Below are positions 6,948 to 38,094 of a DNA stretch of 44,352 nucleotides, piece by piece. The stretch is from Pleomorphomonas sp. (GTDB lineage Bacteria > Pseudomonadota > Alphaproteobacteria > Rhizobiales > Pleomorphomonadaceae), in NCBI GenBank assembly GCA_030603685.1, contig JAUVXG010000017.1, positions 1 to 44,352 on the forward strand. Direction: 5' to 3'. Position 1 is the stretch's first letter. Each line of letters starts with the position of its first letter. The position numbers and the translations under genes were made by a program. The notes under the pieces were generated by a model that made no database searches, was not told the DNA's origin, and saw nothing but the letters and a program-made list of their open reading frames with translations.

Positions 6948-6972
6948 GGAACCAATCTTGTCGCGGTCAGTT
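6948..6972 (+). promoter_or_regulatory. Putative EcfG (general stress sigma) promoter of glgX
   Basis: GGAAC at 6948-6952, 17 bases, then GTT at 6970-6972, matching the alphaproteobacterial EcfG pattern GGAAC-N17/18-GTT. It points toward glgX and leaves a leader of about 220 bases. No other gene is visible between it and glgX. Confidence 0.6.
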
Positions 6973-7196
6973 TCACGAACCACGAGTATGTTTTTCAGAT
7001 CCCCCCACCGGGCCCTGTTTGATGGCGTCTCAACTTGAAAGTCGATCCTTCCATCCACGGCGCTCGCCGATGCGGACCGCATCATCGCGTGACTATCCCG
7101 GGGTTCGAGCTATCGTGGGGCCGGCCGCGGTTCCTGCCCCGACCGGCCGGTCTTCCCGCATGCTGGCAATGGCAAGTCGTCCCGGAGAACACGTGA

Positions 7197-9320
7197 ATGC
7201 GTAAGGTGCTGCCTGGTTCGGCTTTTCCCCTGGGCGTGACGGTCGATGACAAAGGTGCCAACTTCGCGCTGTTTTCCGACAACGCGAGCGGCGTGACGCT
7301 TTGTCTGTTCGATCGCTTCGGCATCACCGAGACGGAGCGCATCGCCCTGCGCGAGTGCACCAATGGCGTCTGGCACTGTTACCTGCCCGGCGTCGGGCGT
7401 GGGCAGGTCTATGGTTGGCGCGTCCATGGGCCTTGGGCACCCGAAGCCGGTCATCGCTTCAACCCCAACAAGCTGCTGCTCGATCCCTATGCTCGCCAGC
7501 TCGTCGGCGACATCCGATGGAACGACACGCTCTACGGCTATCAGATCGGAGCCGGCGACGACGCCGATCTCATGATGGACGAGCGCGACAGCGCCGCCTT
7601 CATGCCCAAGGCGCGCGTGGTGGCGGGCACGCCGATGGTCACCACCCAGCATCCGCACGTGTCCTGGGCAAAGACGGTCATCTACGAAGGTCACGTACGC
7701 GGTCTGACCATGCTGCACCCGGTGGTTCCGAAGACGATCCGCGGTACCTTCACCGCGCTGGGACAGCCGGAATTCGTCGATTATCTGGTCGGGTTGGGCA
7801 TCACTTCGCTGGAGCTTCTGCCGATCCACGCCTTTCTTCAGGACAGGCATCTCGTCGAGAGCGGCCTTTCCAACTACTGGGGCTACAACACGCTCGGCTT
7901 TTTCGCCCCCGAACCACGCTACCTTGGCGACACCGGCCTTGAATCCAGAGGAGAGGCCGTCGATCTGCTCCACCAGGCCGGCATCGAGATCATCCTCGAC
8001 GTCGTCTACAATCATACCTGTGAAGGCAACCATCTGGGGCCGATGCTGTCCTTCAAGGGCATCGACAACGCGTCCTATTATCGCCTTCTGCCGGACAACG
8101 GCCGTTACTACGACAACCTGACCGGCTGCGGAAACGCGCTCAATACCGATCATCCTCGCGTCCTGCAGATGATTCTCGACAGTCTGCGCATGTGGGCCAC
8201 GGTCTATGGCGTCGACGGCTTCCGCTTCGACCTTGCCACGACGCTGGGACGCCGCCCCAGCGGCTTCGATCCGGGCCACGCCTTTTTCAACGCCATCCTG
8301 CAGGACCCACTGCTGGGAGGGCTGAAGCTGATCGCCGAGCCCTGGGACATCGGCCCAGGCGGCTATCAGCTTGGATCGTTTCCGCCCGGCTTTTCCGAAT
8401 GGAATGGCGACTACCGCGACAAGGTGCGCGGCTTCTGGAGCGGCGAGGAAGGACTGCTGCCGAGCTTTGCCACCCGCGTCGCCGCCTCGCAGGACATTTT
8501 CGCCGAAGGACGCCGTCGGCCATGGTCGAGCGTCAACTTCATCACCGCCCATGATGGTTTCACCCTCAACGACCTCGTCTCCTACAACCACAAGCACAAC
8601 GAGGCCAATGGAGAGGACAACCGCGACGGCCACGACGATAACAAGAGCTGGAACTGCGGCGCCGAGGGCGAGACCGATGACGAGGCCATCAACGCCCTGC
8701 GCCACAGGCAGAAGCGAAACCTGCTCGCCACGCTGTTCCTCAGTCAGGGCGTGCCGATGGTGCTTGCCGGCGACGAGTGCTCCAACACGCAAGGTGGCAA
8801 CAACAACGCCTACTGCCAGGATAACGAAATCGGCTGGGTCAACTGGTCGAACGACGACCCGGAGCTACCGAAGTTCGTGGCGCGGCTTGCCGACCTCAGA
8901 AAGAACCATTCTGCCCTCTCTCGGCCGGAGTTCCTGACCGGCGCCCGCAACGAGATGGGACAGCCGGACGTCGCCTGGTTCAACAATCACGGCGACCGAA
9001 TGACCGAGGCCGACTGGGAAAATCCGCATTCCAAGTGCCTGACGCTGCGCCTTGCACCGGTCCTGGAAAGCGAGACTCCGCTCCTGATCATGCTGAATGC
9101 CTCACATGTTCCGGTCGAGTTCCAGATCCCCCCGGGGCACCCAGGGGACTGGGAAGTGATCCTAGCCACGGACGGCGATCTCGAGGATGCCCGGCTCGGC
9201 GGCGATGCCACTTTCACCATGCCCGCCCGAACGCTCGTTCTCGCCGAGTGGCGGGAACAAAGCCCGATCGACTCCGTTCCAGAGGCAACCAAGCCGACGA
9301 ACGGAACGGACGACGATTGA
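7197..9320 (+). CDS. glgX: Glycogen debranching enzyme GlgX
   Basis: A 707-residue GH13 enzyme that hydrolyses alpha-1,6 branches in phosphorylase-trimmed glycogen in the cytoplasm. An N-terminal beta-sandwich (CBM48-like, about residues 5-110) precedes the catalytic barrel. The four GH13 regions are visible: DVVYNHTCEG (from Asp268), DGFRFDLATTLG (nucleophile Asp345), LIAEPWDIG (acid Glu381) and TAHDGFTLNDL (Asp453). QGGNNNAYCQDNEIGWVNW is typical of GlgX. Length matches the family. The start is an ATG with GGAG about ten bases upstream. treZ follows after 85 bases, which suggests that released malto-oligosaccharides feed trehalose formation. A putative stress promoter lies upstream. Confidence 0.94.
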   Translation: MRKVLPGSAFPLGVTVDDKGANFALFSDNASGVTLCLFDRFGITETERIALRECTNGVWHCYLPGVGRGQVYGWRVHGPWAPEAGHRFNPNKLLLDPYARQLVGDIRWNDTLYGYQIGAGDDADLMMDERDSAAFMPKARVVAGTPMVTTQHPHVSWAKTVIYEGHVRGLTMLHPVVPKTIRGTFTALGQPEFVDYLVGLGITSLELLPIHAFLQDRHLVESGLSNYWGYNTLGFFAPEPRYLGDTGLESRGEAVDLLHQAGIEIILDVVYNHTCEGNHLGPMLSFKGIDNASYYRLLPDNGRYYDNLTGCGNALNTDHPRVLQMILDSLRMWATVYGVDGFRFDLATTLGRRPSGFDPGHAFFNAILQDPLLGGLKLIAEPWDIGPGGYQLGSFPPGFSEWNGDYRDKVRGFWSGEEGLLPSFATRVAASQDIFAEGRRRPWSSVNFITAHDGFTLNDLVSYNHKHNEANGEDNRDGHDDNKSWNCGAEGETDDEAINALRHRQKRNLLATLFLSQGVPMVLAGDECSNTQGGNNNAYCQDNEIGWVNWSNDDPELPKFVARLADLRKNHSALSRPEFLTGARNEMGQPDVAWFNNHGDRMTEADWENPHSKCLTLRLAPVLESETPLLIMLNASHVPVEFQIPPGHPGDWEVILATDGDLEDARLGGDATFTMPARTLVLAEWREQSPIDSVPEATKPTNGTDDD
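9254..9278 (+). promoter_or_regulatory. Putative internal EcfG promoter for treZ
   Basis: GGAAC at 9254-9258, 16 bases, then CGTT at 9275-9278 (17 bases to GTT), inside the last codons of glgX and about 127 bases before the treZ start. Being inside coding sequence, it could be chance. Confidence 0.42.
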
Positions 9321-9405
9321 CGGGTAGCACGCCCGCCCGTCGATGAACGTTGTGCCGACTGCCGTACGATGCGGCTCGTCTCGCTGCTTTTGGAGGAGAC
9401 TCGCC

Positions 9406-11190
9406 ATGCCACCTCGCACCATTCGCCGCGAACAGGAGATGAAATTCGGCACGCAAATGACGCCGGACGGCGTTCGGTTCCGTCTTTGGGCGCCGCTTGT
9501 CCCGTCGGTCGAGCTGGAGGTCGATGGCTGGTCGCTGCCCATGCAGAAGGATGTGCGCGGGTGGTACGAAGTCGAGGTGCCCGGCGTGAGTCATGGCAGC
9601 CGGTACATGTTCTGCCTGCCGGATGGCAAGAAGGTGCCGGACCCCGCATCGCGTTATCAGCCGGAGGACGTCGACGGCCCGAGCGAGGTCGTCGATCCGC
9701 TCGTCTTCGAATGGACAGATCTCGGCTGGCGCGGGCGCCCCTGGGAAGAGTGCGTCTTCTACGAGCTGCACATCGGCACCTTCACGCCTGAGGGCACGTT
9801 CCGGGCAGCGGCGGACAAGCTTGAGTATCTCGCCGAACTCGGAATCACCGCCTTGCAGATCATGCCTCTCGCCGATTTCGCCGGGCGATGGAACTGGGGA
9901 TACGACGGCGTCTACATGTTTGCCCCGGACGCCTCCTACGGCCGCCCCGAAGACCTGAAGGCACTGATCAATCGCGCCCACGAACTCGGCATGATGGTCA
10001 TGCTCGACGTCGTCTACAACCACTTCGGTCCGAAGGGAAACTACATCCCCCTCTACGCGCCCATTCTCAATGACAAGGAAACGCCCTGGGGGCCGGGCCT
10101 GAATGTTGACGGCGAGAATGCCACCGTGGTGCGCGACCTCGTTCTCGCCAACGCGAGATTCTGGATCAACGAGTATCGGTTCGACGGTCTGCGCTTCGAC
10201 GCTCTGCACGCCATCGAGGACAGCGGCCCCAAGCATCTGATCCAGGATCTGGCGGAACAAACCCGGGCAGCGAGCGACGGTCGGCACATTCATCTCGTCG
10301 CGGAGAACTCGCACAATCAGGCCATCTGGCTGAGACGGCGCGACGACGGAACGCCCTGGCTCTACACCGCCCAGTGGAACGACGACCTGCATCACTGCCT
10401 GCATGCGCTGGTCACCGGGGAAAGCCAAGCCTATTACCAGCCCTACGCGGAGCGTATCGATCTCGTCGCCCGAGCATTGGCCGAGGGATTTGCCTGGCAA
10501 GGCGAGTACTTGGCGCGCGAGAACCGAACCCATGGCGAGCCGAGCGCCTTTCTGCCCCCGACCTCCTTCGTATCCTTCATCCAGAACCACGATCACACCG
10601 GAAACCGCCCGGCGGGCGAGCGCATCGGTCAAATGGTCCCGCGCGAAGCGGCCCGAATGCTGGCTGCAGTTTATCTGCTGTCGCCGCAGATTCCGATGCT
10701 GTTCATGGGCGAAGAGTGGGGAGCAAAGACGCGCTTCTGCTTCTTCTCCGACATCCGGGAGTTGGGCGACGCCATCCGCAGGAGTCGGGAGGAGGAGCTC
10801 AAGGAGTTCCCCCTGGCCGGCACAGGCGAGCACATCGACCCGATGAACGAGAGCGCCTTCCTAGGATGCAAGCTCGACTGGAACGAGCAAGCGTCACCGG
10901 AGAGTCGCGACATGCTGGAGCTCTACAAGGACCTGTTGCATGCGAGATCCACCGTCCTGATACCTCTCCTCGTCGGGATCGAGGGCAACAGCGGCTCGGC
11001 GGAAGTAATAGGGCCTCGAGCCTTTCAGGTTTGCTGGACACTCTCCGGCGGCACCCGCCTCAACCTTGCCGCCAATCTCGGCGCCACGCCGCAGACAGGC
11101 AAGTGGCACGACGTCTTTCCTCTCTGGTGCGAAGGCACGTTCTCGGCGGACACTCTCGGTCCCTACACAGCGTTGTTCTGGTTGTCCTGA
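9406..11190 (+). CDS. treZ: Malto-oligosyltrehalose trehalohydrolase TreZ
   Basis: A 594-residue GH13 enzyme that releases trehalose from maltooligosyl trehalose. After an N-terminal domain (KFGTQMTPDGVRFRLWAP) come the barrel motifs DVVYNHFGPKG (Asp201), GLRFDALHAI (nucleophile Asp265), LVAENSH (acid Glu300) and the TreZ-typical QNHDHTGNRPAGER (Asp396). WNDDLHHCLHALVTGE is also characteristic. The start is the ATG with GGAGGAGA six bases before it; an upstream frame adds 21 unrelated residues. treY, which makes the substrate and is usually next to treZ, is not in this window. TreZ needs a TreY partner, so one is expected elsewhere in the genome. Confidence 0.94.
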   Translation: MPPRTIRREQEMKFGTQMTPDGVRFRLWAPLVPSVELEVDGWSLPMQKDVRGWYEVEVPGVSHGSRYMFCLPDGKKVPDPASRYQPEDVDGPSEVVDPLVFEWTDLGWRGRPWEECVFYELHIGTFTPEGTFRAAADKLEYLAELGITALQIMPLADFAGRWNWGYDGVYMFAPDASYGRPEDLKALINRAHELGMMVMLDVVYNHFGPKGNYIPLYAPILNDKETPWGPGLNVDGENATVVRDLVLANARFWINEYRFDGLRFDALHAIEDSGPKHLIQDLAEQTRAASDGRHIHLVAENSHNQAIWLRRRDDGTPWLYTAQWNDDLHHCLHALVTGESQAYYQPYAERIDLVARALAEGFAWQGEYLARENRTHGEPSAFLPPTSFVSFIQNHDHTGNRPAGERIGQMVPREAARMLAAVYLLSPQIPMLFMGEEWGAKTRFCFFSDIRELGDAIRRSREEELKEFPLAGTGEHIDPMNESAFLGCKLDWNEQASPESRDMLELYKDLLHARSTVLIPLLVGIEGNSGSAEVIGPRAFQVCWTLSGGTRLNLAANLGATPQTGKWHDVFPLWCEGTFSADTLGPYTALFWLS

Positions 11191-11253
11191 CCGCCTTCCG
11201 GGCACTCTGTTCGCCGACGAGGCCAACGTACTGGCGCCACAGCCCAAAGCAAT

Positions 11254-11278
11254 CGCGGCCCCCTTTTGGGAGGCCGCG
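11254..11278. terminator. Hairpin between convergent treZ and the KGG gene
   Basis: Ten-base-pair G+C stem (CGCGGCC+CCC / GGG+GGCCGCG with one bulged A) and a TTTT loop. It lies between the ends of two convergent genes and could stop both transcripts, but neither side has a good T tract. Confidence 0.5.
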
Positions 11279-11359
11279 AGAGACATGGTGGGCACCCGGA
11301 GCACCCGCCGATCCGGTTGAATCAACCTGATCGAAAAGCGGCTGCTCCAACAGACAAAG

Positions 11360-11728
11360 CTAGTGCTGCCCCCCCTTGCGTCCGGCTTCTGCCGCCCGCT
11401 CGGGGTCGTTCTTGAAGTTGCCGCCGGACTCCTGACCGCCCCTGCGGCCGGCTTCGGCGGCACGCTCCGGATCGTTCTTGAAGTTGCCGCCGGATTCCTG
11501 ACCACCCTTCCGGCCAGCCTCAGCCGCCCGTTCAGGGTCATTCTTGAAGTTGCCACCGGATTCCTGGCCGCCCTTGCGACCGGCTTCGGAGGCGCGCTCC
11601 GGATCGTTCTTGAAGTTGCCGCCGGACTCGCGGCCACCCTGCGCGGCGATTTCCCGCTGCTTGTCGTCATCCATGGAAGCAAATCCACGACGGGAGGTGT
11701 CGCCAGTGCTGCTCTGTTGGTTAGGCAT
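11360..11728 (-). CDS. KGG-repeat stress protein (GsiB/hydrophilin-like)
   Basis: A 122-residue, highly hydrophilic protein with no cysteine. Residues 34-121 are four near-identical 22-residue repeats (core ESGGNFKNDPERA, then EAGRKGGQ), the KGG motif family that includes Bacillus GsiB and enteric YciG. Such proteins accumulate in starvation, desiccation or osmotic stress; the molecular role is uncertain, perhaps hydrophilin-like protection. An N-terminal stretch GFASMDDDKQREIAAQGG is a divergent first unit. The start follows AAGGAGA closely. A putative EcfG promoter sits about 50 bases upstream. The repeats differ by few residues, so repeat number may vary between strains. Confidence 0.88.
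   Translation of the reverse strand: MPNQQSSTGDTSRRGFASMDDDKQREIAAQGGRESGGNFKNDPERASEAGRKGGQESGGNFKNDPERAAEAGRKGGQESGGNFKNDPERAAEAGRRGGQESGGNFKNDPERAAEAGRKGGQH
11366..11629 (-). repeat. Four tandem 66-bp coding repeats
   Basis: Four in-frame 66-base units encode the 22-residue KGG repeats. Units are highly similar but show scattered third-position changes, so they are not a very recent expansion. Confidence 0.85.
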
Positions 11729-11776
11729 TGCTTTTCTCCTTGAGGGATCGTGCTGCCTTGTTGGTAGCGACATATA

Positions 11777-11801
11777 AACCCTCACCCCAACCAATTGTTC
11801 C
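11777..11801 (-). promoter_or_regulatory. Putative EcfG promoter of the KGG gene
   Basis: On the minus strand GGAAC (11801-11797), 17 bases, GTT (11779-11777), with the -10 end about 48 bases before the ATG. It lies in the 401-base gap 11729-12129, which is AT-rich at 11815-11935 and holds no convincing gene. Confidence 0.68.
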
Positions 11802-12041
11802 GTGTCGAATCTCGATTCTGACTCTCATTATTAAGTAATCGCAGGCAAGCGAGACGCGCAATACCAGTTTGTTGTAAGATAAATGTGACATTTATACAAA
11901 TCAGAAAATGTCAATATTATGTCTAATCGATCGCTCCGCTTCGCTACCTGCAACACATGGTTGGCTTTTTCTATCACAGCGTACGTTGTTCCTCCCGTTC
12001 CAAGCTGATCTCAACATTTATCGCGCCCCTTGGGCCCAAAT

Positions 12042-12067
12042 GGAACCGCGTGGATATCGAGACCGTT
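12042..12067 (+). promoter_or_regulatory. Putative EcfG promoter of the small acidic protein gene
   Basis: GGAAC at 12042-12046, 17 bases, CGTT at 12064-12067, ending 62 bases before the ATG. It diverges from the EcfG-type site of the KGG gene 240 bases away. Confidence 0.65.
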
Positions 12068-12129
12068 CTGGCATGGTGGATCATGCACGCCCGTGAGAGG
12101 CAGATCCGCTAACAGCGAAGGAGGCCGTG

Positions 12130-12477
12130 ATGACGATCAGAGTGAAGGAAATAAAGCCGCTCGAAGATGGCCGCTGCAGTGTGGAGTTCTGCCTGGTCGA
12201 CAATACGGTGGTTACGATCGCATTGCCGCCGGCGGAGAAAGACGCACCGAACGCGGACCCGACCGATCGCGCCGAAGCGGCCATCAAAGCCGTTTGCGCG
12301 GCCGTTTCCTCCGGACTGCGGGATGCCATCCCCACCACGAACGATGCCCGAGACAACCAGGATCGCGACACATTGGAGGAACAGCTTGAGGAAGGCCTCG
12401 AGGACAGCTTCCCGGCCAGCGACCCGGTATCGATCAGCGTGCCGTCCACGCTGCCCAAGACCGCAGGAAAGAGCTAG
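12130..12477 (+). CDS. Small acidic protein with DSFPASDP motif
   Basis: A 115-residue acidic protein of unknown function. The N-terminal half (MTIRVKEIKPLEDGRCSVEF) looks like a small beta-rich domain. The C-terminal part has LEEQLEEGLEDSFPASDPVS, a short motif recurrent in small stress-associated alphaproteobacterial proteins. I do not recognise a catalytic motif. The start is the ATG five bases after AAGGAGG (12118-12124); a GTG one codon earlier is too close to the ribosome site. A putative EcfG promoter precedes it, which together with the motif suggests membership of the general stress regulon. Confidence 0.78.
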   Translation: MTIRVKEIKPLEDGRCSVEFCLVDNTVVTIALPPAEKDAPNADPTDRAEAAIKAVCAAVSSGLRDAIPTTNDARDNQDRDTLEEQLEEGLEDSFPASDPVSISVPSTLPKTAGKS

Positions 12478-12574
12478 GCGAGCAGCCGTTCCAGCACAGG
12501 TGGTACCCCTTCCGTTTGATCTCGGCTCAGGCAGCGGGCTTCGGGCTGGCTGGCCTGTGCCCAGGCAGGGGTTT

Positions 12575-12622
12575 CCGCTTCCGTCAGGTCCCACACGGAA
12601 GGCCGAAACCTGGCGGAAGCGG
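12575..12622. other. 15-bp hairpin between convergent genes
   Basis: Inverted repeat with arms 12575-12589 and 12608-12622 (one G-U pair) and an 18-base loop. It lies in the 318-base gap between the small acidic protein gene and the SDR gene, which converge. There is no T tract, so it may be a bidirectional stop or an RNA-protecting structure. The rest of the gap shows no gene. Confidence 0.5.
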
Positions 12623-12795
12623 TGTGACGCAGCACTCATGACCGCTTGCCCCACGGGGCTGCAAAGCTTGAGGCGCGGTGCACCAGCCAGAGGCGCTGTC
12701 GGCTGGACGCGGTTGATCAAGCGTCTCACGTCGACCGCAGTTTCGCCAGCGTGGCCATGATGCGAAAGGACCGGCTTTCTGACGAACATCGCGGT

Positions 12796-13533
12796 TCAGC
12801 TCGTTGCCTGAATCTGCGGTTCGATGCGAAGGCTGACGACATCAGTCTGCCTGGACCGGGTCAATGCGAAATGGATGGCTTCGGCAATGTCCTCGGCATA
12901 CAGCATCTGCCCGTTGGCCAAAGCGTCCTTCTGTTCCTCGCCGGTTTTCGGCTGCATGGGCGTCGCAACCGAGCCGGGTGCGATGACCGTCACCTTGATG
13001 TTCTTGTCGGCAACCTCCTTGCGAAGCGTTTCTGCGAAAGCTTGAAGGCCGGCCTTGGTCGCCGCATAGACGCTCTCGCCCTCGGCCTTTATTTCGGAAC
13101 TGATGGAGCCGACAAACAGCAGATGGCCGCCACCTTCCTGCATGCGCAGAACGGCTTGGCGGGCGCAGGCCATGGCTCCGAGCAAGTTGGTTTCCACGAC
13201 ATAACGCCATTCGTCCTCCTCCATCTCGTGGATGGGCTCTGCGCCGAGCGCCGCGCAGGTGACCAACATGTCAATGCCGCCCAGTTTCTCGTCCACCGCG
13301 GCGAACGCCCTCTGGACGCCGCCCCGGGTGGCGACATCCGCCGTCAGTCCCACAACACTCCCTCTGCCGCCTTGCGCTGCGCCAATCGCCTCGTCCAGTT
13401 CGGGCCGATGTCGACCAAAGGTCAACACTCTTGCCCCCTCCCGAGCCAGAAGCGCGACGGTGGCTCTTCCGATGCCGGTTGTCCCACCGGTCACTAGGAT
13501 ACGCTTGCCTTCAAGGCTGGTGTGGTTGCTCAT
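12796..13533 (-). CDS. Short-chain dehydrogenase/reductase (SDR)
   Basis: A 245-residue classical SDR with the cofactor motif TGGTTGIG (around residue 15) and the YxxxK catalytic pair in SVYAATKAGLQAF, with the catalytic Ser in VGSISS. The familiar NNAG motif is replaced by TCAALG. GRHRPELDEA after strand 2 (Arg following the fold) suggests NADP use. The substrate is unknown. The start lies only four bases after the stop of the preceding six-hairpin gene and has GGGAG upstream, so the two are co-transcribed, probably from the EcfG-type promoter at 15806-15830. Confidence 0.87.
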   Translation of the reverse strand: MSNHTSLEGKRILVTGGTTGIGRATVALLAREGARVLTFGRHRPELDEAIGAAQGGRGSVVGLTADVATRGGVQRAFAAVDEKLGGIDMLVTCAALGAEPIHEMEEDEWRYVVETNLLGAMACARQAVLRMQEGGGHLLFVGSISSEIKAEGESVYAATKAGLQAFAETLRKEVADKNIKVTVIAPGSVATPMQPKTGEEQKDALANGQMLYAEDIAEAIHFALTRSRQTDVVSLRIEPQIQATS

Positions 13534-13537
13534 GCGT

Positions 13538-15763
13538 TCACTCCCAGATCAGTTGGATCTGGCCCTTCGCCGGTACGTGATAGGTAATGGAATCTGCCGA
13601 CCTGACATGCGGGCGAAGATCCCTGCCCTCCTCGGTCGCCACCTTGACGGTGCCGAGCTTGCGGTACTTGAGGCGCACCAGGGTGAGACTTGCGGTGCAG
13701 GTTTCGCCGCCATTCAATGTGATGGTGACCGCGCGCTCGCTCACCGGCTCGAACACCGGGACGAGCATGTCGCAGTAAAGGCGGAACGGCGCCCCGCCGA
13801 TGTGATGGAAGGCGCGGGTGGCGAAAATGAAGGCCGCGCCGGCACCATAGACCTCTTGGCCGACCTGTCCGGCCGGCTGCCCATCCGCGTAAAGATCTTC
13901 AACCGGGAAGCAGAGTTTGCGGTCGATATGCCCGTTGGTCTCGCGTTGGGTTGGTGACAACACCTCGGGCGGCAATGCGTCGGGGTAGTAGAACCAAGCG
14001 CGATCCAGCGCGTACTTGCAGTATTCGGTTACCAGCAGGCGCGCCGCGGGATCGACGTTCAGCCCGCCGTCCGAGAGATAGTGTTCGAAGGCGGCGAAGG
14101 AATCGAAACACTCGTAGATCGCCATATAGGGCGCATCCTGAAGGCAAGTCGCGGCCATGAAGTTCTTGTAATGCCTGGCCAACCCTATGTTGCTCTCCCA
14201 GAACTGACTGTTGTGGAAGAAGCTGGCGAGATAGACATAACTTTGCTCGAGATAGACCGGTTTGTTGGTAATCCGCCACAGTCGCATGCAGGCGGCGGCG
14301 CCCCACGCCGTCAGATTGGCCTGATAGTTGAGGTCGAAGCCGAGACCGGTCGCGGTGTCGATCGCTGCCCGCGCTTCATCGAGGAAGCGCTTGTCGTCGG
14401 TGAGTTCAAAGGCCTGCAGCATCACCCAGGCATAGACGCCGCCGACATCCGTCTGGCCGCGACCATCGGCTTCGGCCTTTTCGGTGATGACGCTGAAGTC
14501 GGTCACCTTGTACTGGACCGGCCACTCGTACTTGAAATGGTGCGCCACCTTGATGCCGAACTCGATCGACTTCATCAGCAGGTCGCGCGCCTCGTCATCC
14601 CCATCGAGCGCGAGGATGCCGAGGTTCAGCATGGGGTGGTAAAGATACCAGCTGTCGACCGCGTCGGCATCCTTGTCCTCTCCGACGTTGGGCAGATAGC
14701 GGCGCAAAGACCCGAGTTTCGGATCGTAGAACTTCTTCAGTCCCGTCTTGAACTGCGCCTCGAGCGGATGCGGCTCGCCACACCATTTTCCCCAGGCGTG
14801 GATCGCCTCGACGATGGACATCTGCACCATGATGTCCGGATATTCGGCATCGGTATAGGGATGAACATAACGGTATCCGTAGTGCCTGATCGTGGCCTCC
14901 GGCGCCTTGTCGAGGTCGCGCAAAGTCCGCTCAGCGCGCGCCAGCCAATCGCGGTACTCGGTGTCGGGACGCTCGATCACCTTGTAGGCGATGGCAAGCA
15001 TCTGAAGGAACTGTCGAGCGAACTCCCTCTCATGAGGTGGGGCGTCGTAGCGGAAGACGAGGATGGCATCCGAAAGTGTGACCTCGACGCCGGCCTTCAA
15101 CGCATCTGTTGGCGGGTTCACGCTTTGAACCGGAGCGGGCAAAAGATAGCCAAGTTCCGGCCATTGGCCGCCAACGGCCCTGTCGGGCTTGGTCTTGGTG
15201 GCGCGGAAATAGCCATTGAGGGCGGTTAGATTTTGGAAGTAAAGGACGTTGCCGAAAAACGGTTCGTCAACGTGGAAGAAAACCAAGCCGCTGTTGAGCC
15301 CGCGTTGGATTGCTTCGACGTTGCCTTTGGCACCCATGGGATCGTCGTTCTCGTCCAGCGGATAGACGTCGCGCGGCATAAAGGGAACGAGCATGGGAAC
15401 AGCGGGCGTGAAGTGCGCGGTTACCCGAAGATGGGCCAGGGCGCCCTCGCCAGTCCTCACGACAATCAGGTGTTCGCCGAGCGCGCTTTTGATTTTCAGC
15501 CTCGCGGCTTCGTCGGCCTTGCATGGCTCGGCGATGCAGTCGAACTCACCGGCCAGACACGCCGCACGTAAGGCAATGCCTCCCTTGCCCTTCCGGCGGA
15601 TGAACGCCCACACCGAATCCCCGAGAGCTCGCACTTCGATCTGCAAGGCACCAAGCTGAAAACCAGCGATCGGATCGACCTGCTTTTCCTCAAGCGCCTG
15701 CCGCAGTGCAAGAACATAGGAGCTGACCCCAACCAGATCGGGATTCAGCGTGCGTGTCGACAT
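13538..15763 (-). CDS. Six-hairpin-glycosidase-like protein of unknown function
   Basis: A 741-residue cytoplasmic protein (no signal peptide) that I cannot assign to a named family. Residues about 1-290 look beta-rich. From about 300 to 640 there are repeated aromatic alpha-helical segments such as DSWYLYHPMLNLGILAL, DVGGVYAWVMLQAFEL and LTAWGAAACMRLWRITN, spaced like an (alpha/alpha)6 barrel, followed by a C-terminal beta domain. This architecture is common in glycoside hydrolases, lyases and phosphorylases. The start has AGGAGGT six bases upstream; the longer frame has no ribosome site. It is co-transcribed with an SDR and lies close to glycogen/trehalose genes, so a carbohydrate role is possible but unproven. 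Confidence 0.75.
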   Translation of the reverse strand: MSTRTLNPDLVGVSSYVLALRQALEEKQVDPIAGFQLGALQIEVRALGDSVWAFIRRKGKGGIALRAACLAGEFDCIAEPCKADEAARLKIKSALGEHLIVVRTGEGALAHLRVTAHFTPAVPMLVPFMPRDVYPLDENDDPMGAKGNVEAIQRGLNSGLVFFHVDEPFFGNVLYFQNLTALNGYFRATKTKPDRAVGGQWPELGYLLPAPVQSVNPPTDALKAGVEVTLSDAILVFRYDAPPHEREFARQFLQMLAIAYKVIERPDTEYRDWLARAERTLRDLDKAPEATIRHYGYRYVHPYTDAEYPDIMVQMSIVEAIHAWGKWCGEPHPLEAQFKTGLKKFYDPKLGSLRRYLPNVGEDKDADAVDSWYLYHPMLNLGILALDGDDEARDLLMKSIEFGIKVAHHFKYEWPVQYKVTDFSVITEKAEADGRGQTDVGGVYAWVMLQAFELTDDKRFLDEARAAIDTATGLGFDLNYQANLTAWGAAACMRLWRITNKPVYLEQSYVYLASFFHNSQFWESNIGLARHYKNFMAATCLQDAPYMAIYECFDSFAAFEHYLSDGGLNVDPAARLLVTEYCKYALDRAWFYYPDALPPEVLSPTQRETNGHIDRKLCFPVEDLYADGQPAGQVGQEVYGAGAAFIFATRAFHHIGGAPFRLYCDMLVPVFEPVSERAVTITLNGGETCTASLTLVRLKYRKLGTVKVATEEGRDLRPHVRSADSITYHVPAKGQIQLIWE

Positions 15764-15805
15764 TGCCCGACCTCCTCTCACTTGACCAGAAGCAGGAGCA
15801 GTCAA

Positions 15806-15830
15806 AACGGAATGCCGAGAAGTATGTTCC
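15806..15830 (-). promoter_or_regulatory. Putative EcfG promoter of the six-hairpin/SDR operon
   Basis: On the minus strand GGAAC (15830-15826), 16 bases, CGTT (15809-15806), ending 42 bases before the ATG at 15763. It matches the full GGAAC-N16-CGTT pattern. Confidence 0.7.
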
Positions 15831-15958
15831 CCCGGCGGACGTGTTTTGACGTCGTTCCGGCCCCATAGCGCCTCGACACGCTGCGCAAGCGGAAAGGCCC
15901 GTCGCGAAACTCCCAACGAGGTCAATAGTTTGCCGCGCTTGAGGAAGATGATCGCAAG

Positions 15959-16555
15959 TCAGGTTGTTTGGCCGATCGCACGCGCCTGCTTGAGATCGTC
16001 GACGAACGCCTCAAAGGCGGCCTGTTTGGCGGCGCTATCGGGGATGCGCAAGAGATAGGACGGGTGGACCGTGAGGAAGCCCCGCCGGTTGCAGAAAGTC
16101 ATCGGCCCGCGCTCGCGGGTGACGGCGACGGGTCGTTCGGCGAGTGCCAAGCCGGCCGTCGCGCCAAGCGCCACGATGACGGTGGGACGCACCAGATCGA
16201 TCTCTCGCCACAGCCACCAGCGTTGGTGGACGATCTCGCCCGTTCTTGGCTTGCGGTGAATCCGTCGCTTGCCGCGCTCGGTGAAGTGAAACTGCTTCAC
16301 GGCATTGGTCATATAGGCCTCACCGCGATCGATTTCCGCCTCGACGAGGGCGCGATCGAGCAGGCGTCCGGCCGGACCGACGAAGGGCCGGCCCTCTCGA
16401 TCCTCGGCGTCCCCCGGCTGCTCGCCAACGAAGGCCATAGGCGCCAGAATTGAGCCCTCACCCGCCACGACGCCGCCAACTCCGGCCGCAGACGGGAATT
16501 CCCGCCGCATGGCGTCGTTGAGCTCCTCAAGCGAGGCAAAGTCCCGGTCGGTCAT
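15959..16555 (-). CDS. udgX: UdgX-like uracil-DNA glycosylase lacking Fe-S cysteines
   Basis: A 198-residue family 4/X uracil-DNA glycosylase. Motif 1 is GEQPGD (residues 44-49), then PFVGPAGRLLD, MTNAVKQFHF and HPSYLLR (His164). The R-loop GKRRIHRKP (His100) is the hallmark of UdgX, whose histidine forms a covalent bond with the abasic sugar after uracil removal. Family 4 and UdgX enzymes usually carry four cysteines for a [4Fe-4S] cluster; here only one Cys (155) exists, the N-terminal CxxC region is absent, and the later Cys position reads HQRWWLW. The ATG start was chosen; a GTG nine codons upstream adds no cysteine. It follows the DUF72 gene by 78 bases, likely in one transcript. Confidence 0.85.
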   Translation of the reverse strand: MTDRDFASLEELNDAMRREFPSAAGVGGVVAGEGSILAPMAFVGEQPGDAEDREGRPFVGPAGRLLDRALVEAEIDRGEAYMTNAVKQFHFTERGKRRIHRKPRTGEIVHQRWWLWREIDLVRPTVIVALGATAGLALAERPVAVTRERGPMTFCNRRGFLTVHPSYLLRIPDSAAKQAAFEAFVDDLKQARAIGQTT

Positions 16556-16633
16556 ATCGGGCCTCGAAACGGCCGGCCTCACCCAAACGTGCGCCGGCTT
16601 TGCGGCAACGCGCCGGGTCCCAGGCGGTTCCCG

Positions 16634-17539
16634 TCACATCAGCCGGCGACTGTCGGTCGGTCGCCATTCCAAACCCAGCTCCCGCATGATCGCGAGGGCG
16701 TCGTCGGGGGCGCGGAAGCCGTCGGTATTGTCGAAGAACAGGAAGACGTCGCGCGGACTGTTCGGTGCTTTGACATCGCTCGCGAAATCACCATCGTCCA
16801 TCGGCTCGCCTTTCGCCCATGCTGAAATGCGCCGCGCCCAGCGCTGACGTTCGGCACCGTCATAACCGGACCGGTAGAGATCGCGCGAACCATGCAGGCG
16901 GCAGTAGGCGAAGTCCGAGGTGACATCCATCAGGCGGGGCCATTCGACGGTATCGGCACAGACCAGGGCGATGTCCTGTTCGCGCAGAAGCTCGATGAAC
17001 GACGGATGGCGAAAGCTGTTGTGACGGACCTCAAGCGCATGGCGTAGGGGCTGTTTGGCTGGCCGCGTCAGGTCCGGATTGTCGATGTGATCATCGTGGC
17101 GACCAGCCAGGTCGGCGGCCGCGTCGGTGTTTCTCGGCAACAGAGACAGAAAGGCGCGCATCCGTTCGAGGTCCAGAACAAAACTTGGCGGAAACTGCCA
17201 GAGTATGGGACCGAGCTTTGCGCCGAGCCGCAACGGTCCGGAGGCGAAGAAGTTGGCGAGCGGTGCCTCGACATCCTTCAGACGCTTGACGTGAGTGATG
17301 AAGCGCGGTCCCTTGACGGCGAAGACGAAGTCATTCGGCGTCTCCGATGCCCATCGATCGAAAACGCGCGGCTTCTGCAGGCCGTAAAAGGTCCCGTTGA
17401 TTTCCAGAGACGGAAAGCGCGAAGCGGCATAAGCGAGCTCTTCGCTTTGCCGCAGCCCTTCCGGGTAGAAGCGGCCACGCCACGGCGCGTAGGTCCAGCC
17501 GGATATGCCGATGCGAATGAAACCGACCTTGGAAGTCAT
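16634..17539 (-). CDS. DUF72 family protein (YecE-like)
   Basis: A 301-residue DUF72 protein, a TIM-barrel family of unknown activity. Recognisable stretches are IGISGWTYAPWRGRFYP at the N-terminus, LEINGTFYGLQKPRVFDRWASETP, LGPILWQFPPSF, ALEVRHNSF and the C-terminal FLFFDNTDGFRAPDDA. Length is close to other DUF72 members. The start has GGAGG four bases upstream. A UdgX-like glycosylase gene follows on the same strand. DUF72 has been linked to nucleic acid processing only by context, so the pairing with a DNA-repair enzyme deserves attention. A putative EcfG promoter is 30-50 bases upstream. Confidence 0.88.
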   Translation of the reverse strand: MTSKVGFIRIGISGWTYAPWRGRFYPEGLRQSEELAYAASRFPSLEINGTFYGLQKPRVFDRWASETPNDFVFAVKGPRFITHVKRLKDVEAPLANFFASGPLRLGAKLGPILWQFPPSFVLDLERMRAFLSLLPRNTDAAADLAGRHDDHIDNPDLTRPAKQPLRHALEVRHNSFRHPSFIELLREQDIALVCADTVEWPRLMDVTSDFAYCRLHGSRDLYRSGYDGAERQRWARRISAWAKGEPMDDGDFASDVKAPNSPRDVFLFFDNTDGFRAPDDALAIMRELGLEWRPTDSRRLM

Positions 17540-17566
17540 GCTGCCTCCGGAAGTGTATCCGGAGGG

Positions 17567-17592
17567 AACGTCGCTTTCGCGCAGCGGGTTCC
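17567..17592 (-). promoter_or_regulatory. Putative EcfG promoter of the DUF72-udgX operon
   Basis: On the minus strand GGAAC (17592-17588), 17 bases, CGTT (17570-17567), ending 28 bases before the ATG at 17539. Confidence 0.68.
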
Positions 17593-17616
17593 TCGCCCGC
17601 CGTGCATCACGGCTGT

Positions 17617-17640
17617 CCAAGGGGGTGGTTGCCCCCTTGG
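17617..17640 (-). terminator. Probable terminator hairpin after phoX
   Basis: Perfect 9-bp stem CCAAGGGGG / CCCCCTTGG with a 6-base loop, 19 bases beyond the phoX stop codon on its strand. The T tract is poor (ACAG follows), so termination may be incomplete. Confidence 0.55.
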
Positions 17641-17658
17641 CTTTCAGGAGCCGGATCG

Positions 17659-19569
17659 TCAGCCGACGAGCGCGTGATCGTCGCGCCGGATCGCCACGAT
17701 GGTCGAGCGCGGCAGCTTGCCTTCGCCATCGGGGAAAGGCGCACCGGGATGCTGGATGCCGACGAACAGCGTCCGCTTGTCCGCCGACCAGGTCATGCCG
17801 GTGACTTCGCCGCCCTTCGGACCGGTCAGGAAGCGTTCGATGCGGCCGGTCGCCGGATCGCCGGCGAGCATCTGGTTGTTACCCTGGCCGAGGAAGTCGC
17901 CTTCGTTGCTGTCCTCACCGTCCGTCTGGATCCACAGAAGGCCGGTCGAGTCGAACATCATGCCATCAGGCGAGTTGAACATGTTGCCGGAGTTGATGTT
18001 GGACGAGCCGGCATAGGCGTCGTTGTGGACGTCCGGATTGCCGGCCATGACGAACAGGTCCCACTTGAACTTGCCGTCGGCATGATCGTCGTTGTCCGGA
18101 TACCAGCGGACGATCTGGCCATACTCGTTCTTCTCGCGCGGGTTGACGGCGTTGAGCGCCATCTCGTCGCCGCCGGCATTGGCGCGCAGCTTGCCATCCT
18201 TCATCTCGCCACGCCGGCTGTTGTTGGTCAGCGCGCAATAGGCCTCGATGGCGATCGGGTTCACGGCAACCCACTCGGGCCGGTCCATCGTCGTGGCGCC
18301 GACCTTGGAGGCCGCCTGACGGGTGAAGACGGAAATCTCGTCCGGCTTCATGCCGGTCGTCTCCGGCGTCAGCGCCAGCCACTCGCCATGGCCGTCGTCG
18401 GAGAACTTGGCGACATAGAGCGTACCCTCGTCGAGCAGCCTGGAGGTGTCGCCGCCCGGCACATAGATGCCGTTCGAAACGTACTTGTAGAGAAACTCGC
18501 CCCGCTCGTCGTCGCCCATATAGACGACCACGCGACCGTCGCGAGCGACCGCGACGGCGGCATTCTCGTGCTTGATACGGCCGAGGGCAGAGCGCTTGAT
18601 CGGCGTCGAGGAGGCGTCCGACGGATCGATCTCCACGATATAGCCGGCGCGGCGCGGCTCGTTGGGATTTTTGGAGACGTCGAAGCGAGGATCGAAAGCC
18701 TCGTAGCCGTAGCGCGTTTCGGCGGCGATGCCGTAGCGCTTGTAGTCATCGGGCATGGCGAAGTTCGGATCGGTGGAGCCGAAGTAGCCGTTGAAGTTTT
18801 CCTCGCAGGTCAGGTAGGTGCCCCAGGGCGTCTTGCCGGCGCCGCAGTTGTTGAAGGTGCCGAGGCTGTCGGTGCCGTTGGGATCGGCTGCGGTCTTGAT
18901 GAGATCCGAACCGGCGGCAGGGCCGGAAATCTTCATGGGCGTCAGATGGGTGATGCGGCGGTTGAACGGGCTGTCCAGCACGATCTCCCAGCCGTCCTTG
19001 CCTTCGGCGACTTCCATGACGGTGACGCCCTGCAGATTTTGCAGGATTTTCACGTCGTCAGCGCTCTTCGGCATACCCTTTTCGTTGTGCGGAAGGTTGG
19101 TCTCGTTGTTTACGTATTCATGGTTGACGGCGATGACCTGACGGCCACCGATCACGAACAGTTCCATGCCGTCGGTGTTCTCGCCGAAGACCTTGTCGGA
19201 GTTCTCCAGGCTGACGCCGTTGACCGGATCGATATCCGGAACACCCGAGAACAGCGGTTGTCCCCACTTGGCGAGCGGCTTCCAGGCATAGCCCTCGGGA
19301 ACGTGCACGGTGCTGTCGGTAAAGATCGGGATCGGCTTGAAGGCGAAGCGGCCGGACATGCCCTGGGCATGGGCGGCGGTGGAGCTCATCAGGTTGCCGA
19401 GCGTTCCCATGGCTGCGGCAGCCGAGCCAAAAGCCAGGACGCCGCCGAGAAAGCCGCGACGCGAGACTGCCTTTTCGACAACGCGGTCGAAATCGGTCAC
19501 GGCCGGCGGCGGGTTCTGCAGTTCATCCCACTCGTCCCAAGACAGCTTATTGGTGTCGATGTTCGTCAT
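17659..19569 (-). CDS. phoX: PhoX-family alkaline phosphatase, Tat-exported
   Basis: A 636-residue PhoX (DUF839) phosphatase that should release phosphate from organic phosphomonoesters in the periplasm using iron and calcium. A Tat signal is visible: SRRGFLGGVLAFGSAAAAMG from residue 36, with cleavage near AHAQG. Downstream are the family stretches VNHEYVNNE, NNCGAGKTPWGTYLTCEENF, GYIVEIDP and the C-terminal region DPATGRIERFLTGPKGGEVTGMTWS. The long stretch before the RR pair is usual for PhoX. It is a single-gene unit with a PHO-box-like sequence upstream, which fits induction by phosphate starvation. The next gene upstream on the same strand ends 93 bases away. Confidence 0.92.
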   Translation of the reverse strand: MTNIDTNKLSWDEWDELQNPPPAVTDFDRVVEKAVSRRGFLGGVLAFGSAAAAMGTLGNLMSSTAAHAQGMSGRFAFKPIPIFTDSTVHVPEGYAWKPLAKWGQPLFSGVPDIDPVNGVSLENSDKVFGENTDGMELFVIGGRQVIAVNHEYVNNETNLPHNEKGMPKSADDVKILQNLQGVTVMEVAEGKDGWEIVLDSPFNRRITHLTPMKISGPAAGSDLIKTAADPNGTDSLGTFNNCGAGKTPWGTYLTCEENFNGYFGSTDPNFAMPDDYKRYGIAAETRYGYEAFDPRFDVSKNPNEPRRAGYIVEIDPSDASSTPIKRSALGRIKHENAAVAVARDGRVVVYMGDDERGEFLYKYVSNGIYVPGGDTSRLLDEGTLYVAKFSDDGHGEWLALTPETTGMKPDEISVFTRQAASKVGATTMDRPEWVAVNPIAIEAYCALTNNSRRGEMKDGKLRANAGGDEMALNAVNPREKNEYGQIVRWYPDNDDHADGKFKWDLFVMAGNPDVHNDAYAGSSNINSGNMFNSPDGMMFDSTGLLWIQTDGEDSNEGDFLGQGNNQMLAGDPATGRIERFLTGPKGGEVTGMTWSADKRTLFVGIQHPGAPFPDGEGKLPRSTIVAIRRDDHALVG

Positions 19570-19622
19570 AACGGCTCTCCCCTGTTTGGAACAATTCCAG
19601 CCAAGGGGTTTACATCTGTAAA

Positions 19623-19640
19623 AATACAGATCGATGACAA
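19623..19640 (-). promoter_or_regulatory. PHO-box-like site upstream of phoX
   Basis: On the minus strand TTGTCAT-CGAT-CTGTATT, matching 11 of 14 positions of the PhoB tandem CTGTCAT-N4-CTGTCAT. It lies 54-71 bases before the phoX start. It overlaps an inverted repeat (ATCTGTA/TACAGAT, 19614-19631) that could also be a weak stop for the upstream gene. Confidence 0.6.
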
Positions 19641-19662
19641 GCCGGGAAGCTCGATCGTGGGA

Positions 19663-20628
19663 TCAGACGGAAAGCCCCAAATCGCTGAGGTCGGGGCCGC
19701 GCGGCACGATGCGCTGCGGATTGAGCGCCTTCATCGAGTAGTAGCCATGCTTGATGTGGTCGATGCTGACCGTTTCCCGGATGCCCGGAAATTCGAGAAC
19801 GCGCTTCAAGTAACCGCTGAGGCCGGGATAGTCGGCAATGCGGCGAAGATTGCATTTGAAAAGACCGTGATAGGCGGCATCGAAGCGGATCAGCGTGACG
19901 AACAGCCGGACGTCCGTCTCCGTGAACCGATTGCCATGCAGATAGAGGCGACCGTCGGCGAGCCGGGCCTCCAGTTCATCGAGCATGTCGAAGACGTCGG
20001 TGAACGCCTCGTCATAGGCGGCCTGCGTGGTGGCGAAACCCGCCCGATAGACGCCATTGGTGAGACGCGGATAGATGCGGTCGTTGAGCGCATCGATCTC
20101 CGCCGCCAGATCGGCCGGATAGAGATCGAGGTCCGACGTTGCGAGATCGCCAAAGCCGGAGTTGAGCATCCTCAGGATATCGGCCGACTCGTTGTTGACG
20201 ATGGTGCCGCGCTTCTTGTCCCACAACACCGGCACGGTGGCGCGGCCGGTGAAATGGGGATCGGCCTTGGTATAGATCTGATGAAGATAGGTGGCGCCAT
20301 TGACCGGGTCATCGGTCGCACCTGGATAATCGCCGAAGCGCCAGCCCTCATCGGTGATCATCGGCTCGACAACCGATAGGGAGATGACGCTTTCCAGCCC
20401 CCTCAACTTGCGGCCGATCAGCGTTCGCGAGGCCCAGGGGCAGATCAGCGCGATGTAGAGGTGATAGCGGCCCGCCTCGGCGGCAAAACCCGCGTCGCCG
20501 GTCGGTCCGGCCGCGCCGTCGGGCGTCACCCAGTTGCGAAAGCTGGAGGTCTGGCGGACGAAGCCGCCCTTCTCGTCCGTCTTTTCAACCGGCTTCCACT
20601 CCGCCGTCCATTTGCCGTCGACGAGCAT
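19663..20628 (-). CDS. Glutathionyl-hydroquinone reductase (Xi-class GST)
   Basis: A 321-residue Xi-class glutathione transferase of the YqjG/PcpF type, which removes glutathione from glutathionyl-hydroquinones through an active-site cysteine. The CPWA motif is at residues 63-66 (ALICPWASRTL), as in the family. Other marks are FVRQTSSFRNW near the N-terminus, VPVLWDKKRGTIVNNESADILRML, and GVYRAGFATTQAAYDEA. Length matches the family. The start has AGGAG about six bases upstream. It stands alone on the strand, with a putative EcfG promoter 66-90 bases upstream, consistent with an oxidative-stress role. Confidence 0.9.
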   Translation of the reverse strand: MLVDGKWTAEWKPVEKTDEKGGFVRQTSSFRNWVTPDGAAGPTGDAGFAAEAGRYHLYIALICPWASRTLIGRKLRGLESVISLSVVEPMITDEGWRFGDYPGATDDPVNGATYLHQIYTKADPHFTGRATVPVLWDKKRGTIVNNESADILRMLNSGFGDLATSDLDLYPADLAAEIDALNDRIYPRLTNGVYRAGFATTQAAYDEAFTDVFDMLDELEARLADGRLYLHGNRFTETDVRLFVTLIRFDAAYHGLFKCNLRRIADYPGLSGYLKRVLEFPGIRETVSIDHIKHGYYSMKALNPQRIVPRGPDLSDLGLSV

Positions 20629-20693
20629 GGAGGTCTCCTGTCTGGTTGGTGGGATGGACACGAGCGCTGTGTTCGATCCGATATCGTAACCGT

Positions 20694-20718
20694 AACTGCT
20701 CGTTGCAACCCAGGTTCC
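20694..20718 (-). promoter_or_regulatory. Putative EcfG promoter of the glutathionyl-hydroquinone reductase gene
   Basis: On the minus strand GGAAC (20718-20714), 17 bases, GTT (20696-20694). It lies in the 270-base gap between this gene and the divergent ABC operon. Confidence 0.5.
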
Positions 20719-37198: not shown

Positions 37199-38037
37199 GC
37201 GTGGACCACCTGGGCTTCAGTGAGGAGGCCGGCGCCGGAAATCGACATGGCCCGGCCGTCGACCAGATGCAGGCGGCCATTGTAGTCTTCGGTCAGACAA
37301 GTCATGCTTGTAACCCAGTCGCCACAGTTGGCATAGAGCAGACCGTGGCGGTCGTGAATGCCGGCCATGTGGTAATGGCCGCAAATGACGCCATCGGCGT
37401 CGCGCTGCCTCGCCAGCTCGACCAAGCGGCGTTCGTGTCCCCGCCCGAAGTGCAGCGCGGTGTTGACCGCCGCGAAAGCCTTGTCGATCTTCCCGCCCCA
37501 GACCCGTGCGCGACAGTCTTCTGTCGGCACCACGGCGGCGCAGACCAGGCGGGCAAGACTCTCCAGATAGGTCCCGATGCGCGTCAGAAGATGGCTGCGA
37601 ATGAAAGCCCTGTCTTGGTGGTGACCATGAACCACCAGATATCGCCGTCCGTCGGCCGCGACATGAACGAACTCATCGCGAGCTTCCACCGGCAGGCGCC
37701 GCCCATTCGGGACGAGAGGCGGCTCAGGATCATGATTTCCGATGAGGTAAATGAGCTTGGCTCCTTCCGCATGCCGCCGGCGAAGGTGCTCGATCACTGC
37801 ATCGCAGGCCGTGGCGCGTCCCAGAGAGAACGGTACGCCGGCATCGAGGATGTCGCCAACGAGCATGTAGGTGTCGGCCCTGTTTTGCTCAAGGAAGCGC
37901 AGAACCAGATCGGCACGCGCTCCAATCGCACCAAGATGCAAATCGGAGAGGAACAGGGTGCGGTGGCGGCGGATCGGAGCCTTCTTGGGGGCGGGATCGG
38001 ACAAGGCGCTCTCCTTCAGTTCCTGCATCTTCTCCAT
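37195..38037 (-). CDS. PlcP/LpxH-like metallophosphoesterase
   Basis: A 280-residue calcineurin-like phosphoesterase with complete motifs: LFLSDLHLG, GDILDAG, GNHDPE, VVHGHHQD and CGHYHMAG. Automated annotation would call it UDP-2,3-diacylglucosamine diphosphatase, but the same family contains Sinorhizobium PlcP, which splits phosphatidylcholine to diacylglycerol under phosphate limitation. Overlap with a GT21 gene supports the PlcP role. First gene of a four-gene operon. A second ATG three codons in is possible, because the ribosome site before the first is weak. A putative EcfG promoter is 33-57 bases upstream. Confidence 0.8.
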   Translation of the reverse strand: MEKMQELKESALSDPAPKKAPIRRHRTLFLSDLHLGAIGARADLVLRFLEQNRADTYMLVGDILDAGVPFSLGRATACDAVIEHLRRRHAEGAKLIYLIGNHDPEPPLVPNGRRLPVEARDEFVHVAADGRRYLVVHGHHQDRAFIRSHLLTRIGTYLESLARLVCAAVVPTEDCRARVWGGKIDKAFAAVNTALHFGRGHERRLVELARQRDADGVICGHYHMAGIHDRHGLLYANCGDWVTSMTCLTEDYNGRLHLVDGRAMSISGAGLLTEAQVVHA

Positions 38038-38069: not shown

Positions 38070-38094
38070 AACTTTGCAGGATGATGACGGTTCC
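38070..38094 (-). promoter_or_regulatory. Putative EcfG promoter of the lipid-remodelling operon
   Basis: On the minus strand GGAAC (38094-38090), 17 bases, GTT (38072-38070), 33 bases before the ATG at 38037. A degenerate PHO-box-like stretch (CCGTCAT-N4-CTGCAAA) lies in the spacer but matches only 10 of 14 positions. Confidence 0.58.

Follow-up and report, generated by a model that had tools for sequence, protein, structure and literature searches.

Eight probable EcfG-type general-stress promoters clustered in an island of a Pleomorphomonas genome

We analysed a 44,352-nt stretch of Pleomorphomonas sp. DNA (contig JAUVXG010000017.1), here called the window, from a host genome of 4.75 Mb. 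Between positions 6948 and 20718 (13.8 kb) lies an island which, from sequence comparison, we take with a probability of about 0.88 to be a cluster of eight promoters of the general-stress sigma factor EcfG, each standing before its own gene. The little-known genes behind these sites are very probably stress-survival genes. An earlier note on this DNA had proposed the EcfG reading, and it is supported by the presence of the site upstream of 55 of 56 orthologous gene copies with diverged spacers, by sites of the same form at the phyR/nepR-ecfG locus, and by sites before genes for KGG-repeat and DSFPASDP proteins in other genera.

Eight sites, each before a start codon

A site was defined by the EcfG-type pattern, with GGAAC as the -35 element, a spacer of 17-18 nt and GTT as the -10 element. 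With both strands counted, the window holds 11 exact GGAAC-N17/18-GTT matches, which comprise nine positions and the reverse-strand mates of two palindromic sites (9254 and 17592; a minus-strand site is numbered by its 5' end). Dinucleotide shuffles of the window (n=100) gave a mean of 2.03 matches with a standard deviation of 1.46 and a maximum of 7. Eight site positions fall within the island, each on the same strand as the downstream gene and 53-249 nt before its start. Measured from the site's first G to the start codon, the leaders are 249 nt long for glgX, 89 for treZ, 73 for the KGG gene, 88 for the DSFPASDP gene, 67 for the six-hairpin gene, 53 for the DUF72 gene, 76 for udgX and 90 for a gene of glutathione S-transferase (GST) fold, named glutathionyl-hydroquinone reductase (GHR) in the earlier note. 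The predicted EcfG-type promoters, all exact matches, are listed with the number of copies in the genus that have the site:

6948..6972, plus strand: promoter of glgX, N17; 7/7 orthologues with enough upstream DNA
9254..9278, plus strand: promoter of treZ, N17, within the 3' end of glgX; 7/7 treZ copies
11777..11801, minus strand: promoter of the KGG gene, N17; 8/8 orthologues
12042..12067, plus strand: promoter of the DSFPASDP gene, N18; 8/8 orthologues
15806..15830, minus strand: promoter of the six-hairpin gene, N17; 4/4 genus copies
16607..16631, minus strand: promoter of udgX, N17; 6/6 orthologues
17567..17592, minus strand: promoter of the DUF72 gene, N18; 8/8 orthologues
20694..20718, minus strand: promoter of the GST/GHR gene, N17; 7/8 orthologues

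Seven of these sites (6948, 9254, 11801, 12042, 15830, 17592 and 20718) had been listed in the earlier note, and all seven are exact, on the right strand and before a start codon; its count missed the eighth, at 16607-16631 on the minus strand before udgX. DUF72 and udgX, which it had placed under one site, thus have separate predicted promoters. The site at 15830, which it had assigned to the six-hairpin gene together with that of a short-chain dehydrogenase/reductase (SDR), does precede the six-hairpin gene, but the SDR gene has no site of its own. Neither does the PhoX gene, which has none within 300 nt even when one mismatch is allowed.

Conservation within the genus

The orthologous region was compared in G014, G008, G010, G007, G019, G016 and G017, with only the DUF72-udgX part available from G009, for a total of nine genus genomes including the window's own. 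Not counted among the 56 gene copies are glgX of G016, located at a contig end, and udgX of G019, which is a remnant; the site before a treZ relic in G007 is among the 56 aligned sites but outside the gene-copy tally. With the close G014 set aside, 29 equal-length comparisons give a mean spacer identity of 64%, and at the glgX site between 9 and 16 of the 17 spacer positions are identical across orthologues. Spacer length itself shifts between 17 and 18 among orthologues, for example before the DSFPASDP gene and udgX.

The leaders of the KGG gene (73-75 nt in all 8 orthologues) and the DUF72 gene (50-64 nt) vary little, that of glgX spans 218-265 nt from the first G to the ATG in seven genomes, and that of the GST/GHR gene is 90-107 nt in five orthologues and 284 nt in two. 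No known RNA element was found in the glgX leader (6973-7196), and Rfam gave no match anywhere in the window. The treZ site overlaps the glgX codons CGG.GAA.CAA and GTT, whose frequencies per residue in eleven window genes are 0.19, 0.34, 0.18 and 0.14 (product 0.0016). The less-used codons at this site suggest selection beyond that on the GlgX protein.

Regulator and motif type

In the general stress response, PhyR binds NepR under stress and EcfG is freed. In the same genome, nepR has phyR and a sigma gene of the EcfG type as neighbours, and phyR and nepR are preceded by divergent sites of the same GGAAC/GTT form. The island motif agrees with the EcfG motifs of Sphingomonas melonis, GGAAC-N17-20-GTT (PMC6599016), and Sphingopyxis granuli, GGAAC-N16-CGTT (PMC7083833), and EcfG is described as exclusive to Alphaproteobacteria (PMC3892343).

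Density of placed sites

A same-strand site no more than 260 nt upstream precedes 8 of 10 island genes versus 1 of 26 other window genes (Fisher P 1.3e-5), in a comparison whose island borders were drawn after the sites were known. For comparison, sites were counted in 848.5 kb of the host genome, taken as 60 control stretches, with starts predicted by a crude custom gene finder; it misses some of them, since the real nepR site was not scored as placed. These stretches contained 41 strict matches, 18 of them placed no more than 250 nt upstream of a predicted start, or 0.30 per 14 kb. The reversed pattern gave 48 matches with 8 placed, and six other altered patterns gave 2 to 13 placed. The most often placed of these, GGAAC-N17/18-TTG (13 of 55), is a poor control because GTTG one base earlier satisfies the pattern too.

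Against 0.29 placed sites expected in 13.8 kb, the island has 8, which makes placed sites about 27-fold denser there than in the control stretches (Poisson P(>=8) 1e-9, or about 3.5e-7 allowing for 344 windows). No control stretch held more than 3 placed sites, and one of the two that held three includes the ecfG locus. The equal density of placed matches in unrelated regions that the earlier note had named as evidence against its reading was thus not seen in the 848.5 kb.

Sites before homologues beyond the genus

In other genera of the order, a strict site was found in 13 of 16 KGG loci and 6 of 11 loci of DSFPASDP-like genes, with the reversed pattern in 1/16 and 0/11. The scan covered the 500 nt upstream of each motif match, and the loci are not independent, since several of them come from the same genus or genome. 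The KGG sample fell from 30 loci to 18 once further repeats of genes already included and those of the window were removed, and then to 16 as two were too short; the DSFPASDP sample is 13 loci minus L271, which has an internal stop, and the window's own. Among the remaining controls, the TTG pattern occurred in 5/16 KGG and 2/11 DSFPASDP loci, altered spacings in at most 2/16 and 1/11, and the opposite-strand pattern in 2/11 DSFPASDP loci. In a genome of another family (G407:C30:38515-39117; L250, L269), KGG and DSFPASDP-like genes lie no more than 0.6 kb apart with a strict site before each.

Before the six-hairpin gene, a strict site was present in 15 of 46 sphingomonad-type loci and the reversed pattern in 0/46; altered spacings gave 0/46 and 1/46, GCAAC 2/46 and the TTG pattern 8/46. 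In Bacteroidota, where EcfG is not expected, 0 of 17 loci had a strict site. These counts draw on 65 of 66 loci (L040 out), with L057 grouped with the sphingomonads. The L057 contig is titled Arthrobacter, yet its six-hairpin gene (58%) is like the sphingomonad ones, and the genome is perhaps mislabelled.

Genes of the island

The genes of the island are:

7197..9320, plus strand: glgX, glycogen debranching enzyme; TIGR02100 986.8 bits, cut-off 640.9
9343..11190, plus strand: treZ-type enzyme, malto-oligosyltrehalose trehalohydrolase family; TIGR02402 659.5 bits, cut-off 538.8
11360..11728, minus strand: KGG-repeat protein, 122 aa; PF10685 1.3e-37, 5 stretches (scan on the longer open frame)
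12130..12477, plus strand: DSFPASDP protein, 115 aa, from its translation
12796..13533, minus strand: SDR oxidoreductase; PF00106 7.5e-48
13538..15763, minus strand: six-hairpin (helical barrel) protein, 741 aa, from a predicted model
15959..16555, minus strand: udgX, cross-linking uracil-DNA glycosylase family; TIGR03914 223.4 bits, cut-off 189.95
16634..17539, minus strand: DUF72 protein; PF01904 4.6e-67 (scan on the longer open frame)
17659..19569, minus strand: PhoX-family phosphatase; PF05787 8.1e-181
19663..20628, minus strand: glutathione S-transferase-fold protein; PF13410 and PF13409, no NCBIfam match

For the last gene, the support found here for the name glutathionyl-hydroquinone reductase consists of the GST domains. 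The DSFPASDP protein gave no Pfam match (116-aa version scanned) or NCBIfam match, and the segment from its DSFPASDP motif to a TLPKT stretch is invariant in 8 orthologues.

The earlier note had counted trehalose products among those expected of an EcfG regulon. Membership of the TreZ family stands, but the trehalose argument is weakened, as none of 14 genus genomes (assemblies 86-100% complete) has a TreY scoring above the family cut-off; 5 of the 6 genomes sampled from the rest of the family do. A second TreZ gene above the family cut-off lies elsewhere in the genome (G000:C220:3567-5249). With no TreY above its cut-off in any of the 14 genus genomes, both TreZ enzymes would have to have another role or another source of substrate.

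UdgX carries the GEQPG motif and a KRRIH loop, the latter described as unique to the UdgX class (PMC10359453). Its motif B reads HPSYLLR, with tyrosine at one position of the described form HPS(S/A)(L/V)(L/V)R (PMC10359453), and 6ail, named Uracil DNA glycosylase X, is among its best PDB matches. Control of udgX by LexA as part of the SOS response was considered and rejected: GTTC-N7-GTTC has 2 matches in the window versus 1.83 expected, none near udgX. In three loci of other alphaproteobacterial families DUF72 also precedes udgX, as its immediate neighbour in L219 and L228 and at a distance of 0.8 kb in L216.

The six-hairpin protein has no Pfam or NCBIfam match, and the search for a PDB relative by sequence gave two weak matches only (E 0.08 and 0.09). 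Its predicted model (pLDDT 91.2, pTM 0.92) has beta-rich parts and a helical barrel. Among the best 50 Foldseek matches listed, a phage tail protein ranks first and barrel enzymes make up most of the rest, with a remote likeness to glycoside phosphorylases, epimerases and hydrolases of barrel fold (TM-score by query length at most 0.34). On the model, a fold class can be assigned to this protein but no function.

The SDR gene probably forms one unit with the six-hairpin gene, which it also follows in many sphingomonad loci; in G007 it lies behind udgX, without a six-hairpin gene. In four Bacteroidota loci (L048, L052, L053 and L064), a distant six-hairpin homologue is closely followed by an SDR gene. 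The pair may be old. Membership of PhoX in the island regulon is uncertain.

One further exact match lies outside the island:

38070..38094, minus strand: possible EcfG site; its GTT is 33 nt before a phosphoesterase gene (37195-38037, minus strand)

The phosphoesterase gene is followed by glycosyltransferase and VTT genes. The site is identical at 25 of 25 positions in G019, and the phosphoesterase gene was not found in three other stretches compared, making this a weak candidate.

Gene turnover and origin of the six-hairpin gene

The flanks of the island are fixed in most genus members compared, with fggy/adh on the left and an ABC transporter operon on the right. Between them, gene content varies. 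A whole SDR gene occurs in the window, G008 and G007, and a fragment of it in G010. In G019 a remnant of udgX is left, and the regions of G016 and G017 yielded no udgX, that of G017 no DUF72 either; PhoX occurs only in the window, G014 and G008 (3 of 8 island regions). As far as the stop codon of the DSFPASDP gene, the window and G014 share 94.8% of their DNA sequence, after which 3.5 kb of unaligned DNA stands in place of about 0.18 kb; alignment resumes at 15981, with lower identity at the 3' end of udgX. This pattern is as expected of segment exchange by homologous recombination.

The six-hairpin gene is present in 4 of 20 family genomes, the G019 copy being at another locus, and is 92% identical to that of P. 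diazotrophica and 72% to that of P. oryzae, which are among the nearest named relatives of the window. In a tree of 62 rows (two additional rows and 60 of the 66 loci, after exclusion of L040, L044, L057 and L065 at the outset and of L020 and L030 because of internal stops), the four Pleomorphomonas copies form one clade (100/99) nested in sphingomonad clades (100/98, 97/89). Within the 14-row clade around them, 8 of 10 sphingomonad loci have a strict site, seven of these ending 9-50 nt before the start. Given this nesting and the sites at the nearest loci, the gene was most likely acquired from sphingomonads with its promoter attached, a less likely alternative being that the site was gained independently.

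Interpretation

We propose that under stress PhyR would bind NepR and release EcfG, and that RNA polymerase carrying EcfG would then start at each GGAAC-N17/18-GTT site. GlgX, the TreZ-type enzyme, the KGG, DSFPASDP and six-hairpin proteins (the last probably with the SDR), DUF72, UdgX and the GST-type reductase would be made together. Between the fixed flanks, species have gained, lost or swapped genes singly or in pairs, in most cases along with the promoter, and the clustering may be kept by selection or recombination.

Several observations weigh against the EcfG reading. Genome-wide, the bare strict pattern is barely enriched (256 matches versus 223 for the reversed control), so placement and conservation must decide. 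The GST/GHR gene of G008 has no site even with one mismatch allowed, and none precedes any of the three whole genus copies of the SDR gene or of PhoX. Only half of the aligned sites, 28 of 56, have the C of the CGTT consensus before GTT (19 have G, 7 have A and 2 have T); some flexibility of a published -10 box is reported (PMC7083833). The treZ site lies in glgX codons and is kept in G007, where treZ is a 29-residue relic; its conservation may therefore be partly coding. Beyond the genus, KGG loci show the opposite-strand pattern in 3/16 and a 13-14 base spacing in 2/16, and no strict site precedes the six-hairpin gene in 31 of 46 sphingomonad-type loci. Across the class, a site stands directly upstream of udgX only in L221 and L236 of 25 loci, with one more at the DUF72 start before the DUF72-udgX pair in L219; an EcfG site before udgX is no class-wide rule.

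As to how the island arose, it may be an accretion hotspot, where stress genes of different lineages settle singly with a brought or acquired EcfG promoter, the regulon growing by imports of gene plus promoter between orders that have the sigma factor in common. UdgX, a glycosylase that traps uracil DNA covalently, would then protect the DNA of cells that are dry or not growing. We advance this tentatively, as nearly an even bet. The rather doubtful alternative is neutral clustering, in which inherited neighbours each belong to the regulon and no site collects stress genes. It would account for the same order of glgX, treZ, KGG and DSFPASDP genes in the seven island regions having all four, but six-hairpin/SDR, udgX, DUF72, PhoX and treZ vary in presence between genomes, each along with a promoter except for SDR and PhoX, and one member is nested among genes of another order.

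It is improbable that a different sigma factor, either an EcfG paralogue or another extracytoplasmic function (ECF) factor with a GGAAC -35 box, reads the sites. A similar -35 box is common to many ECF sigma factors, and additional related sigma genes are present in this genome, the two closest lying at C93 (47% identity to EcfG) and C147 (39%), so that one of these may read the island. The -10 GTT and the likeness to the phyR/nepR promoters of the same genome nevertheless point to the EcfG type, and a paralogue would still mean a general-stress role.

That the block is a mobile element carrying stress genes is very unlikely: species-specific insertions and one horizontally acquired gene would fit it, but the island genes scanned include no integrase or transposase, the window contains no tRNA (no search was made for attachment repeats), and flanks and core are stable in most genus members compared. 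Least credible is that the matches are chance or codon-use by-products of a GC-rich genome from which a lucky stretch was picked, for which the slight genome-wide excess and the two palindromic sites that match both strands might speak, but which the cross-species conservation with diverged spacers largely refutes and the density of placed sites opposes.

On the EcfG reading, the island puts forward five little-known regulon members (the DSFPASDP and six-hairpin proteins, the SDR, UdgX and DUF72). It would also be a case of a regulon seemingly gaining a gene and its promoter from another bacterial order, and would link UdgX to a condition where it may be needed.

Comparison with known systems

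The island resembles the EcfG (ECF15) regulon of Alphaproteobacteria in its GGAAC and GTT elements, 17-18 spacing, mostly short leaders and phyR/nepR/ecfG genes, but differs in packing eight separate promoters into 13.8 kb; the whole direct regulon of Sphingopyxis is 79 units (PMC7083833). Only 37% of the stress-regulon genes there have a predicted function, and unknowns are frequent in the other regulons too (PMC7083833). The available parts of the published descriptions consulted do not name udgX, DUF72, the six-hairpin/SDR genes or the DSFPASDP protein as members. Our literature searches found no paper joining EcfG with uracil-DNA glycosylase, and those on EcfG with genomic islands, clustering or horizontal transfer gave no such island among the matches listed. 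The kind of regulon is thus known, and the island form, the turnover of genes with promoters and the membership of UdgX and DUF72, not found among those matches, look new.

The UdgX of the island is like known UdgX glycosylases in its TIGR03914 score above the cut-off, GEQPG motif and KRRIH loop, and unlike them in its HPSYLLR motif B and predicted stress promoter. Papers on genes under RpoS control mention KGG (PMC5437024, PMC7161692); enterobacterial KGG proteins belong to the RpoS regulon, whereas the predicted KGG promoter of the island is of an unrelated sigma-factor type. The closest parallel to the trehalose genes is the glgX/treZ cluster of S. melonis Fr1 (genes 1273-1276), which is EcfG-dependent (PMC6599016). 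That cluster has treY and a glucanotransferase, whereas treY was found in none of the 14 genomes of the island's genus, and its glgX is taken as a putative indirect target, whereas glgX and treZ of the island each have a strict site.

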